Shown: positions 27,431 through 42,063 of the stretch, one piece after another
Position numbering within the stretch: position 1 is the stretch's first letter
Layout of the letters: each line of letters begins with the position of its first letter
Assembly: GCF_003112575.1 (NCBI RefSeq)
Contig: NZ_BEWC01000010.1
Coordinates: 372,001-436,000, forward strand
Reading direction: 5' to 3'
DNA length: 64,000 nucleotides
From: Streptomyces ardesiacus
Lineage (GTDB): Bacteria > Actinomycetota > Actinomycetes > Streptomycetales > Streptomycetaceae
Position numbers and translations under genes: made by a program
The notes under the pieces: generated by a model
Databases searched by the model: none
The model's input: the letters and a program-made list of their open reading frames with translations, nothing else
Told to the model about the DNA's origin: nothing

Positions 27431-28489
27431 ATGAGCTCGCTGAATCTCGACGACTTCACCGACCTGATCGAGCGCCCCGACGGCGGGGTCCGCCGCGACG
27501 CGGAGGCGCGCCGGGAGCGTCAGGCCGTCCCGCCCGGGACCCTGGGCCGCCTGGACGACCTGGGCGAGTGGCTGGCGGCGGCCCAGTCCGCCGTACCGGT
27601 ACGGCCCGTCGTACGGCCCCGGGTGGTGCTCTTCGCCGGTGACCACAAGGTCGCCGAGCTGGGAGTCTCGGCGCGGCCCGCGGGCGGCGCCGGCGAGCTG
27701 GTGCGCGAGGTGCTGGCGGGGAACCGGCCGGTGTCGGTGCTCGCCGGGCGCCTGGACGTGCCCGTACGCGTCGTCGACATGGCCCTGGACTGCGACCCGG
27801 AGTCCCTGCCGGCCGAGGTGGCGGGGCACCGGGTGCGGCGCGGCGGCGGACGCATCGACGTCGAGGACGCGCTGACGCCGGAGGAGGCGGAGGCCGCCTT
27901 CCGGGCCGGGATGGCGGTGGCCGACGAGGAGGCCGACTCGGGCACGGACCTGGTGGTGCTCGGCGACCTGAGCGTGGGCGGTACCACGGCGGCGGGCGTC
28001 CTGGTCGCGGCCCTGTGCGGAACGGACGCGTCGGTCGTCACCGGCCGGGGCGGGCTGCCGATCGACGACCTGGCGTGGATGCGCAAGTGCGCGGCGATCC
28101 GCGACGCGTTGCGGCGCGCGCGGCCGGTCCTCGGCGACCAGTTGCAGCTCCTCGCCACGGTCGGCGGCGCGGACCTCACCGCAATGACGGGCTTCCTGCT
28201 GCAGAGCGCGGTGCGCAAGACGCCGGTGATCCTGGACGGCGTCGTGACGGCCGCGTGCGCGCTGGTCGGGCAGCGGGTCGCCTTCCGGGCGCCGGACTGG
28301 TGGCTGGCCGCGCACGACAGCGGGGAGCCGGGGCAGGCGAAGGCGCTGGACCGGATGGCGCTGGAGCCGCTGCTGACGCAGGGCGTGAAGGTGGGCGAGG
28401 GGGTGGGCGGACTGCTGGCCCTGCCCCTGGTGCAGGCGGCGGCGTCGCTGGCGGCGGAGCTGCCGGAGGTCTCCGACGGGAGCGAGTGA
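27431..28489 (+). CDS. cobT: CobT-family nicotinate-nucleotide:dimethylbenzimidazole phosphoribosyltransferase
   Basis: A 352-residue CobT-like enzyme, expected to activate the lower ligand of cobalamin as alpha-ribazole phosphate. Family landmarks are PPGTLGRLDDLGEWLA near the N-terminus, VVLFAGDHKVAELGVSA, GDLSVGGTTAAGVLVAAL and the C-terminal glutamate region VKVGEGVGGLLALPLV. Several positions differ from the textbook motifs (DHGV is DHKV, and EMGIGNTT is DLSVGGTT), so substrate preference may differ. It lies in a loose cobalamin cluster with cobU and cobS. ATG 27431 starts 8 residues before the family core. Confidence 0.85.
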   Translation: MSSLNLDDFTDLIERPDGGVRRDAEARRERQAVPPGTLGRLDDLGEWLAAAQSAVPVRPVVRPRVVLFAGDHKVAELGVSARPAGGAGELVREVLAGNRPVSVLAGRLDVPVRVVDMALDCDPESLPAEVAGHRVRRGGGRIDVEDALTPEEAEAAFRAGMAVADEEADSGTDLVVLGDLSVGGTTAAGVLVAALCGTDASVVTGRGGLPIDDLAWMRKCAAIRDALRRARPVLGDQLQLLATVGGADLTAMTGFLLQSAVRKTPVILDGVVTAACALVGQRVAFRAPDWWLAAHDSGEPGQAKALDRMALEPLLTQGVKVGEGVGGLLALPLVQAAASLAAELPEVSDGSE

Positions 28490-28563
28490 ACCCCGGTTCA
28501 GGTGAACGGGGTTCGGTGAACCGGGGATTCTTGGTTGCCCGGGGGTGGGCCACGGGGCCCGGC

Positions 28564-28953
28564 GTTGACCGGTGCCCGGGGGGTGTGCGGGCGCGGGGTC
28601 GGATCGCGAGCCCGGCGCAGCGGGGTGCCGCTGCGCCCACCCGTGCCGCCCCAGCGGCACGACTGCCCGCAGCTGGGGGGGGCGTGGCGACTGCCCGCAG
28701 CTGGGGGGGCTACGGTCGGCAGCCGCGTACGGCGAGAAGGGGACGTGTCGGGGGGTGTCCGCCCGCAGCGGTTGGCGCGTCAACGGAGTCCACTTCTGTG
28801 GCCGACCGATTCCGCGCCGTTCCGAGGACGGACACCCCCCGACGCGGCCCCGACCCACAACGCACCCCACCGCGCACCGCGCACCCCCACCGAACCCGCA
28901 CAGGCGCCGCAGGCACCCGCACCCCCACCCACCCCGCACAGGCGCCGCAGGCA
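28564..28953 (+). repeat. Large dispersed intergenic repeat, family A, copy 1 (390 bp)
   Basis: Nearly identical in sequence and orientation to 41750-42063. It begins GTTGACCGGTGCCCGGGGGG and ends ACCCCGCACAGGCGCCGCAG. Inside is a perfect 15-bp inverted repeat, GTCGGGGGGTGTCCG (28747-28761) / CGGACACCCCCCGAC (28829-28843), enclosing a 67-bp conserved AT-richer core. This copy has two internal tandem duplications: one of a unit ending GCAGCTGGGGGG, the other of a unit ending CAGGCGCCGCAGGCA. The 467-bp gap between cobT and the next gene holds no plausible gene. Confidence 0.9.
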
Positions 28954-28956
28954 TCG

Positions 28957-29697
28957 TCACCGCGGATCCGGACGACCGCCGATCCAGTCCTGGACGATGC
29001 GGCGCGGGCCGGACCAGCGGCGGTCGTGGCGGTAGGCGCGCAGGCGGGCCTTCGCGCGGGCGCGCGGGCGGTGGGCGTAGAAGCGGCGGGCCCACGGGGA
29101 GCCCGGCCGGGCCAGGCGGACCGCTCCGATCAGGGCGATCACGGGCACGATCACCCCGAAGACCGCCAGCCGCGCCTTGCCCTTGGCCAGGGCGAGGAGG
29201 GAGAAAAGGAAGTTGCCCGCGACCGTCAGGATGACGTTTATGCGGTCCTGCGACTCGCCCTGGGACACGCCGTCCACACCGAAGGGCGTGAAGCCGGCGA
29301 GAACCAGCCCGACCAGGGCCGCGGTGAGCACCACGACCTCCACGCTCTGGCGCCCCGCCTCGGACCAGTAGACGTCGTCGAGGTGCAGGATCAGCGCGAA
29401 CTCGTCGAGGACGAGCCCCGCCCCGATGCCGAAGACCACCGCCGCGAGCGCCGGCCCGAACCCCTGCCGGCCTCCCGCGACCGCGGCGAAGCCGCCGATG
29501 ACGGTGAGCACCACGCCGGGGACCACGTGATGGATGTGCACCCCGCCCGCCTCGACGTTCCCGAAGGGCCCCTTCCCCGCCCGGATCAGACGGGTGACGA
29601 CCCGGGTGACCACGAACGTCAGCACGAACGCCGTCAGCGCGAGGAGCAGCGGCAGCTTGCCCGGTTCCACGATGTTGCGCTGCCACCACTCTCCCAT
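28957..29697 (-). CDS. Integral membrane protein, function unknown
   Basis: 246 residues with about six to seven hydrophobic helices (first at about 14-36, last at about 185-205), a conserved-looking VHIHHVVPGVVL segment and an acidic patch LDEFALILHLDDVYW between helices. The C-terminal 45 residues are very basic and cytosolic. The His and Asp residues in membrane-adjacent loops could bind metal, but this is inference. It is divergent from cobS, with the start codons 60 bp apart. Copy 1 of the large repeat lies immediately beyond its stop. Confidence 0.8.
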   Translation of the reverse strand: MGEWWQRNIVEPGKLPLLLALTAFVLTFVVTRVVTRLIRAGKGPFGNVEAGGVHIHHVVPGVVLTVIGGFAAVAGGRQGFGPALAAVVFGIGAGLVLDEFALILHLDDVYWSEAGRQSVEVVVLTAALVGLVLAGFTPFGVDGVSQGESQDRINVILTVAGNFLFSLLALAKGKARLAVFGVIVPVIALIGAVRLARPGSPWARRFYAHRPRARAKARLRAYRHDRRWSGPRRIVQDWIGGRPDPR

Positions 29698-33276: not shown

Positions 33277-33457
33277 CCCCGCGCCCCTTTGGCCGGTCCT
33301 CCGGGCACCGCCCGCGGAGGCACCGCACGCCACCGCGCCCACGCGCCCCAGCCGCAGATCGACACAGCCCCGCGCCCCTCGGCCGGCCCTCCGGGCACCG
33401 GCCGCAAAGGCACCGCACACCGCAGCGGCCACCCTGCCCAGCCGCAGATCAGCACAG
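33277..33457 (+). repeat. Two imperfect tandem 91-bp units in the pepA-lpdA gap
   Basis: Each unit starts CCCCGCGCCCCT (33277 and 33368), then GGCCGGYCCTCCGGGCACCG, and ends CAGCCGCAGATC followed by ACACAG or GCACAG. A third start (TCCCGCGCGCCC) begins at about 33459. The first unit is preceded by GCGCAGTTCCCCGCGCCCCT, a string I recognise as recurrent in Streptomyces intergenic DNA. Function unknown. The whole gap (33208-33695, 488 bp) holds no supported gene. Confidence 0.8.
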
Positions 33458-33528
33458 TCCCGCGCGCCCGGCGGGGTCGTGCCGCCCTCGGTGGCACGTT
33501 CCGCCCGCTGCTCCGCTCACATGAACGT

Positions 33529-40743: not shown

Positions 40744-41754
40744 ATGCGTGCTGCCCGCCTGATCAAGATGGTGCTGCTCCTCCAGTCCCGCCCGGCCATG
40801 ACCGCCGCGGAGCTGGCCCGGGAGCTGGAGGTGTCGGAGCGGACCGTGACGCGGGACGCGCAGGCGCTGTCGGAGGCGGGCGTGCCGGTGTACGCGGAGC
40901 GGGGCCGGGTCGGCGGGTACCGCCTCGTCGGCGGCTACCGCACCCGGCTGACCGGGCTGGCGCGGGGCGAGGCGGAGGCGCTGTTCCTGTCCGGGGTCCC
41001 CGGGGCGCTGCGGGAGATGGGCCTGGAGGACGCGGCCTCGGCGGCCCGCCTGAAGGTGTCGGCGGCCCTGCTCCCCTCCCTGCGGGACGCCTCGCGTACG
41101 GCGGCCCAGCGGTTCCACCTGGACGCGCCGAGCTGGTTCCGCGAGCCCGAGACGCCCGAGCTGCTGCCCGCGGTGGCGGACGCGGTCTGGGACGACCGGC
41201 GGGTCGCCGCGCGGTACCGGCGCGGGGAGGAGGAGGTCGTACGGGAGCTGGAGCCGTACGGGCTCGTGCTGAAGGCCGGCGTCTGGTACCTGTGCGCGAG
41301 GGTCGCGGGGACGTCGGACGGGCCGTTCCGCGTCTACCGCGTCGACCGTTTCACGGCGGTGGAGGCGGGCGGGGAGCGCTTCGGCCGGGACGAGGACTTC
41401 GACCTGCCCGCGTTCTGGGCGGAGCGGGCGGAGCAGTTCGCGCGGTCGATCCTGCGGGCCGAGGTCGTGGTGCGGCTGTCGCCCCGGGGCGTACGGGAGC
41501 TGCCCCGCGCCGTCGACGCGCCGACCGCCCGGGAGGCGCTGGAGGGGGCGGGGGCGGCGGACGCGGACGGGTGGGTGACGGTGACGCTGCCGGTGGAGTC
41601 GGAGGAGGTCGCGCACGCGCAGCTCAGGGGTCTCGGGCCGGAGGTGGAGGTGTTGTCCCCGGCACCCCTGCGGGAGCGCTTCGCTCGGGATGCGCGGAGG
41701 TTGGCCGAGCTGTACGGGGGTGACGGTTCGGCCGGGGGTACGGCCCCGCGTTGA
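40744..41754 (+). CDS. WYL-domain transcriptional regulator with a DeoR-type helix-turn-helix
   Basis: 336 residues. The N-terminal winged helix (RLIKMVLLLQSRPAMTAAELARELEVSERTVTRD) is followed by a helical linker and a WYL domain (about 150-225; LEPYGLVLKAGVWYLCARV, FRVYRVDRFTAV) and a C-terminal WCX-like extension. Such proteins sense nucleotides or nucleic-acid ligands and regulate stress or defence genes, but no defence genes lie beside it here. ATG 40744 is used; GTG 40738 is equally possible. Copy 2 of the large repeat starts inside its stop codon region. Confidence 0.9.
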   Translation: MRAARLIKMVLLLQSRPAMTAAELARELEVSERTVTRDAQALSEAGVPVYAERGRVGGYRLVGGYRTRLTGLARGEAEALFLSGVPGALREMGLEDAASAARLKVSAALLPSLRDASRTAAQRFHLDAPSWFREPETPELLPAVADAVWDDRRVAARYRRGEEEVVRELEPYGLVLKAGVWYLCARVAGTSDGPFRVYRVDRFTAVEAGGERFGRDEDFDLPAFWAERAEQFARSILRAEVVVRLSPRGVRELPRAVDAPTAREALEGAGAADADGWVTVTLPVESEEVAHAQLRGLGPEVEVLSPAPLRERFARDARRLAELYGGDGSAGGTAPR

Positions 41755-42063
41755 CCGGTGCCCGGGGGGCGCGGGGTCGGATCGCGAGCCCGGCGTAGCG
41801 GGGTGCCGCTGCGCCCACCCGTGCCGCCCCAGCGGCACGACTGCCCGCAGCTGGGGGGGGGCGACGCGGCGGGGCAGCCGCGTACGGCGAGAAGGGGACG
41901 TGTCGGGGGGTGTCCGCCCGCAGCGGTTGGCGCGTCAACGGAGTCCACTTCTGTGGCCCACCGATTCCGCGCCGTTCCGAGGACGGACACCCCCCGACGC
42001 GGCCCCGACCCACAACGCACCCCACCGCGCACCCCCACCCACCCCGCACAGGCGCCGCAGGCA
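41750..42063 (+). repeat. Large dispersed intergenic repeat, family A, copy 2 (314 bp)
   Basis: Same orientation as copy 1 at 28564-28953, with only scattered differences and without the internal duplications. The 15-bp inverted repeat is at 41902-41916 and 41984-41998, enclosing the same 67-bp core, whose only difference seen is one C/G change. The left end, GTTGACCGG, contains the TGA stop of the WYL regulator (41752-41754). The 371-bp gap to the next gene holds no supported gene. Confidence 0.9.

Follow-up and report, generated by a model that had tools for sequence, protein, structure and literature searches.

Mosaics of palindromic modules located 3′ of genes are known from E. coli as BIMEs, and for BIME-type repeats gene conversion was reportedly proposed by Higgins in 1988. 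The hairpin described here, which we call D, shares these three traits with BIMEs, but differs from them in sequence, length and genus, and in that the loss of site memory has been measured for it. REPINs, as described in the accessible part of PMC3116915, combine two conserved arms, a less conserved spacer and compensatory changes, are extragenic and are associated with RAYT transposases. D resembles them as a family of dispersed extragenic hairpins with conserved arms, a less conserved spacer and compensatory changes, but it occurs in 12–31 copies in the four genomes counted, has a conserved asymmetric inner loop, forms a composite with a further module (A) and exchanges its loops among fixed sites. 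According to the available portion of PMC3733652, tagged REPs have been reported mainly from Proteobacteria, the GTAG kind together with RAYT transposases, and CGTC-tagged REPs are palindromic repeats of 20–40 bp reported without a dedicated transposase. The D of copy 1 has a GACG close to its 5′ foot, and CGTC or GACG occurs three more times within it, a count of the bare words that makes a kinship with CGTC-tagged REPs no more than possible. Like them, D is a palindromic repeat, but it is longer at 113 nt.

“Streptomyces” is not mentioned in the main text of PMC3733652, PMC2267715 or PMC12306157 and appears once in PMC1590033, in the reference list. Two surveys of Streptomyces RNA (PMC3765725 and PMC4681348) report, in the portions available, convergent overlapping transcripts and short transcripts at palindromic sequences, many of them in 3′ UTRs; “repeat” and “palindrom” are absent from the main text of the former, and no D-like family is described in the available portion of the latter. 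Literature searches, whose reach stopped short of most subscription papers, returned no description of the D family, and four literal 15–17-mers of the D stem had no occurrence in the paper texts searched. D is a REP-like family of a kind for which we found no description in Streptomyces.

The window, the whole stretch of 64,000 nucleotides analysed here, comes from Streptomyces ardesiacus (G000:C10:372001-436000), the genome of which (G000, 7.85 Mb) is referred to below as the home genome. An earlier note, made from the letters of the window, had claimed that 28564–28953 recurs in the same orientation at 41750–42063. Both copies are present, offset by 13,148–13,186 bp depending on the segment, and alignment of 12 home copies with those of relatives showed that the unit is a mosaic of module A (a pair of small hairpins plus a variable insert), the tandem module C, the D hairpin and a C-rich tail, with the following features.

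28542–28955, + strand: entire mosaic unit of copy 1, with approximate ends (from the 12-copy alignment and open reading frames)
28589–28682, + strand: modules A and B and the start of C, a separate dispersed repeat with two short hairpins
28661–28709, + strand: module C, tandem GACTGCCCGCAGCTGGGG units, their number varying among copies
28739–28851, + strand: D hairpin of copy 1 (from the fold z-score and consensus structure)
28747–28761, + strand: left perfect 15-bp arm of copy 1
28778–28812, + strand: variable apical loop segment of copy 1 (type T1), exchanged between sites
28829–28843, + strand: right perfect 15-bp arm of copy 1
28852–28955, + strand: C-rich 3′ tail with two CACAGGCGCCGCAGGCA units
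41742–42063, + strand: entire mosaic unit of copy 2, with approximate ends, flanked by co-directional genes
41767–41860, + strand: module A/B of copy 2
41894–42006, + strand: D hairpin of copy 2
41902–41916 and 41984–41998: 15-bp arms of copy 2

The further details of the note were borne out by the sequence: perfect 15-bp arms around 67 bp are seen in copy 1 and copy 2 alike, the core differs at one base only (28804, G in copy 1 versus C in copy 2), and copy 1 holds tandem duplications of GACTGCCCGCAGCTGGGG at ~28661 and ~28689 and of CACAGGCGCCGCAGGCA at ~28899 and ~28938. Exact 15-bp inverted repeats within 120 bp start at 30 positions in the window, overlapping ones included, versus none in 19 and one in the remaining one of 20 first-order Markov resamples. 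D is laid out as an outer stem, an inner asymmetric loop (CCCGCAG opposite AGGA), an inner stem and an apical loop. Copy 1 occupies the gap in which two genes converge with their 3′ ends, 27431–28489 (+), cobT-like by our reading of its translation, and 28957–29697 (−), read in the same way as a membrane protein. The gene before copy 2 has seemingly lost its native stop and now ends at a TGA inside the unit (41752–41754). The counterpart of 28490–28956 in G026, G009, G001 and G017 is a gap of ~830–915 bp with an apparent small membrane-protein gene, which the home genome lacks. Elsewhere in the window, 33285–33464 holds a 90-bp tandem duplication (82% identical) that is separate from the D/A unit.

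Module A, whose hairpins in copy 1 are GCAGCGG..CCGCTGC and GTGCCGC..GCGGCAC, was matched at 23 places in the home genome, of which 12 adjoin D and 11 stand without it, and at least 29 and 36 times in the relatives G142 and G269, respectively; it is a dispersed repeat independent of D. The second of its hairpins is closed by a short CCCA loop or by longer nested palindromes. A plasmid search with the unit gave a single 65-bp match, 17% of the query, inside module A, and a phage search gave none. Other repeats were noticed in relatives: GGGGCGCGGGGAACTGCGCG or its reverse complement occurs in the G027 gap L242 and beside D in G014, and L189 of Streptomyces sp. uw30 (9–315) holds one D with partial left-flank repeats around it on both strands.

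The home genome contains 12 copies of D on five contigs, 89–100% identical, ten of which match a 161-base query over at least 157 bases and two over 141. Fuller counts gave 31 copies in G026, taken to be S. djakartensis, and 13 each in G142 and G269; all 13 of G269 lie within 2.36–6.69 Mb of its 8.63 Mb. A covariance model, the seed of which kept 26 of 29 picked rows (L056, L057 and L069 were left out), detected D in 94 of 295 Streptomyces genomes at an E value of 1e-4, the home genome included, with no more than 11 matches counted for any one genome; weak matches in G006, G010 and G040 were not kept as D. In a class-wide sample, eight of 296 genomes were positive at 1e-3, again including the home genome, and all were Streptomyces, one of 114 genera. 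A pattern scan returned at least 119 named stretches, and among the matches listed 115 were from Streptomyces, three from Actinobacteria bacterium OK074 and one from Kitasatospora aureofaciens. With 12 copies in the genome and further ones across the genus, a local duplication limited to two sites, which the earlier note had named as an outcome that would overturn its reading, is excluded.

The segment 28738–28850 folds with a z-score of −5.96 against shuffles, and z is about −6 on either strand, as would be the case for any inverted repeat. We therefore relied on the alignment, in which 169 near-complete copies were reduced to 37 representatives and then to 35 rows after L066 and L201, which have odd indels, were left out. 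RNAalifold predicted 29 pairs, 12 of them with compensatory changes; 97.1% of the paired cells can pair versus 90.7% in shuffled alignments, and the covariation score is 0.193 versus 0.073, a value reached by none of 500 shuffles, with slid structures at no more than 0.050, a control tilted in favour of the structure, which was derived from the same rows. None of the 35 rows departs from CCCGCAG in the inner segment, and the opposite AGGA is almost as constant; the apical loop is not conserved. Compensation is also visible within sites and genomes: at the copy-1 site, G238 has changed TCCG/CGGA to TTCG/CGAA in situ, and in G223, taken to be S. parvulus, the outer stem is changed yet paired in five of the six copies read (10 are listed). 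The stem and the asymmetric inner loop of D thus appear to be under selection. G-T cells number 52 in 11 pairs versus four A-C cells in four pairs, a tally in which related rows count more than once; as the two would swap on the other strand, this excess indicates that the + strand is the one kept foldable. Covariation and strand asymmetry together support the earlier suggestion of a structured element.

Open frames do cross the repeat, but two-base indels in relatives and the hypervariable loop cross these frames, which disfavours the unrecognised coding region also named in the earlier note, and D looks non-coding. Rfam had no match in the window at the gathering threshold. Reading the inner loop as kink-turn-like was set aside, since just one of the two G-A pairs expected of a kink-turn is present.

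To describe the gene context, we grouped 267 copies by single linkage into 101 site clusters, seven of which are inconsistent, and called the neighbouring genes with a home-made gene caller. The clusters comprise 33 convergent gaps, tandem gaps with D in sense (26) or antisense (11) orientation, 10 divergent gaps, two positions inside a predicted gene and 19 unscored ones. Against a background of 24 convergent, 171 tandem and 114 divergent gaps without D in the 119 named loci listed, the convergent-to-divergent ratio of the clusters gave P = 1.5e-12, with the convergent background undercounted by its restriction to gaps of at least 100 bp. The excess of sense over antisense orientation in tandem gaps is significant (P = 0.02) but modest. 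The 12 home copies are distributed in the same four classes as four convergent, four sense, three antisense and one divergent (L036). D prefers the ends of genes, lying mostly 3′ of them, and avoids divergent promoter gaps. Its neighbours, which by our reading of translations include proS-, murB-, radA-, folP- and cobT-like genes, have no theme in common. No U-tract follows D in the window, which counts against the reading favoured below.

Comparison with other genomes revealed both unoccupied and long-occupied sites. D was not found in the copy-2 gap of any of 13 distant relatives, three of which (G017, G022 and G027) have at least 150 bp of other DNA there, nor in 15 stretches of the copy-1 site, some of which span only part of the gap. 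D is present at the copy-2 site in L202 (Streptomyces sp. MH60), G142 and G269. In G007 and G011, the empty gap reads ...TGTACGGG|ACATAAC..., and the unit of L202 stands between those words; no target duplication is visible at this junction, the exact left end of which is ambiguous. Eleven of the 12 home sites are occupied in each of two related species, G142 and G269, so that within the clade these sites are old. The search for the unit at the copy-1 site covered nine close relatives, of which seven were aligned: G238, G269, G223 and G142 have both A and D, G160 has A but not D, G306 has D but not A, and G300 has neither, although a short piece resembling the tail is left in G300, which may represent a deletion. 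The copy-1 locus of G252, too long to align, contains no D and no listed match to the unit, and no match is listed at the site in G283. Since G160 lacks D at this site, the D of copy 1 is not indispensable.

We then compared the apical loops of 55 copies from the home genome, G142, G269, G160 (all nine listed copies), G223 (six of the 10 listed), G238 and G306 (one site each). On either side of the loop, 52 of the 55 copies share one and the same stem segment; L341 has an uncompensated change there, and each genome has few loop types. The mean edit distance between loops is 8.67 for the same site in two genomes (n = 88), 9.03 for other sites (n = 1124) and 7.32 within a genome (n = 273), and pairs no more than two edits apart make up 6.8%, 7.5% and 27.5%, respectively. 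At the 13 sites shared by G142 and G269, where the flanks are 94.6–99.3% identical, the loops differ by 2, 2, 3, 4, 5, 7, 9, 9, 10, 10, 12, 13 and 13 edits, a mean of 7.6 versus 8.2 under random matching (P = 0.30). The pairs G160–G269 (6.6 versus 8.7, n = 9) and G142–G160 (7.9 versus 9.0, n = 9) lean toward some site memory of the loop. Variants typical of a genome recur among its copies: GAGGAGGGGG is present in 10 of 13 copies in G269 and in none of 13 in G142, TTTTCAAG loops are typical of G269 and spread over many unlinked sites, and L329 and L331 carry hybrid loops. Collapsed short-read repeats are an unlikely cause of this pattern, since the assemblies of G142 and G269 each consist of a single contig. 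Loops retain no memory of the site at which they lie but pass between the copies of one genome, and together with the genome-typical variants this constitutes concerted evolution at fixed sites.

Several mechanisms could be considered for such a family. A classical MITE, which derives by deletion from a DDE insertion sequence and relies on the transposase of the latter to move it in trans, is matched by a short, dispersed, non-coding unit with inverted arms inside and by the coexistence of occupied and unoccupied sites. Unlike a MITE, however, the whole unit has ragged ends in the 12-copy alignment, inverted no better than chance (163 of 300 shuffles reach the score of copy 1 and 174 of 300 that of copy 2), the copy-2 junction, with its ambiguous left end, shows no visible target duplication, and sites are conserved between species while the sequence is homogenised, making a MITE-like unit in the strict sense of the term used in the earlier note very unlikely. 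The broader proposal of a mobile or functional element holds in outline, given the dispersed family, the occupied and unoccupied sites and the apparently selected structure, except that the copies keep their sites rather than move. Mobilisation as a REP/REPIN by a RAYT (Y1 HuH) transposase has in its favour that D follows the REPIN plan outlined above and that a Y1 protein is present in G011, G022 and G033, each with few copies of D. In a search for Y1_Tnp (PF01797), nine of 61 genomes, a set to which G142, G269, G160 and G223 did not belong, had a match, but neither the home genome nor the D-rich G007, G009, G014, G026 and G027 were among them, and no GTAG or CTAC occurs in the D of copy 1 or within 10 bases on either side, again in contrast to REPIN/RAYT systems; there is little chance that RAYTs account for D. 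An RNA hairpin with exchanged loops would also fit retro-copying through an RNA intermediate, and RVT_1 was found in G007, G011, G020 and G022, but not in the home genome, G009, G014, G026 or G027 (G142, G269, G160 and G223 again lay outside the search), and the spread of loops by a reverse transcriptase is scarcely credible. Y1 and RVT_1 are thus both absent from the home genome, G009, G014, G026 and G027, G007 has one RVT_1 and no Y1, and some genomes with few copies of D have Y1, RVT_1 or both.

The loops themselves bear on three further readings. Streptomyces undergo recombination and the flanks of D are conserved, so that homologous recombination in the flanks might bring in foreign alleles from other strains, with no exchange inside a genome. 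The hybrid loops speak against this, and the sharing of genome-typical variants, such as GAGGAGGGGG and the TTTTCAAG loops of G269, by unlinked sites disfavours import driven by flanks; we regard it as unlikely to be the whole explanation, though copying between strains could be responsible for part of the exchange pattern. An invariant scaffold with a swappable apical loop is what a family of trans-acting small RNAs with loops as guides would look like, yet the 18-mer of the T1 loop, with up to two mismatches, occurs in the home genome only in its own six copies of D, and CCTC, which resembles the anti-Shine-Dalgarno sequence, is present in 10 of 31 parsed loops versus a mean of 9.4 in shuffled loops, as expected by chance, leaving guide RNAs highly improbable. 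D might instead be a site-anchored replicator that rarely takes new sites and actively overwrites its sisters, with a putative enzyme of host or element recognising the stem and inner loop and with loops circulating as cassettes, a possibility we hold to be doubtful. Cutting of the hairpin as the driver of conversion was set aside by reasoning, since uncut alleles would replace cut ones. By the same token, if all that the hairpin did were to attract breaks, uncut alleles would replace it through conversion; that the stem has been kept speaks for a use.

Taking these observations together, we consider it fairly probable that D is a REPIN-like non-autonomous repeat without a RAYT, acting as a 3′-UTR RNA hairpin and 3′-end barrier and homogenised by ectopic gene conversion. 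A 3′-UTR RNA hairpin would be the reading that agrees best with the position of D 3′ of genes and with its strand asymmetry. D would have spread long ago into gaps downstream of genes and would now be mostly anchored there. The + strand would fold into a stable 113-nt hairpin, very probably at the RNA level within the 3′ UTR of the left-hand gene, and this hairpin may serve as a 3′-end barrier through mRNA protection or termination. Copies of one genome would overwrite one another by ectopic gene conversion, which would make the stems uniform and reshuffle the apical loops and neighbouring modules among fixed sites. Ordinary ectopic gene conversion would be the simplest route, the pattern we see being the one expected from it.

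The D family raises the question of whether its hairpin has a role at the 3′ end of core genes in Streptomyces. With sites kept across species and loop memory lost between two genomes at 95–99% flank identity, it would also make gene conversion between unlinked short repeats measurable.
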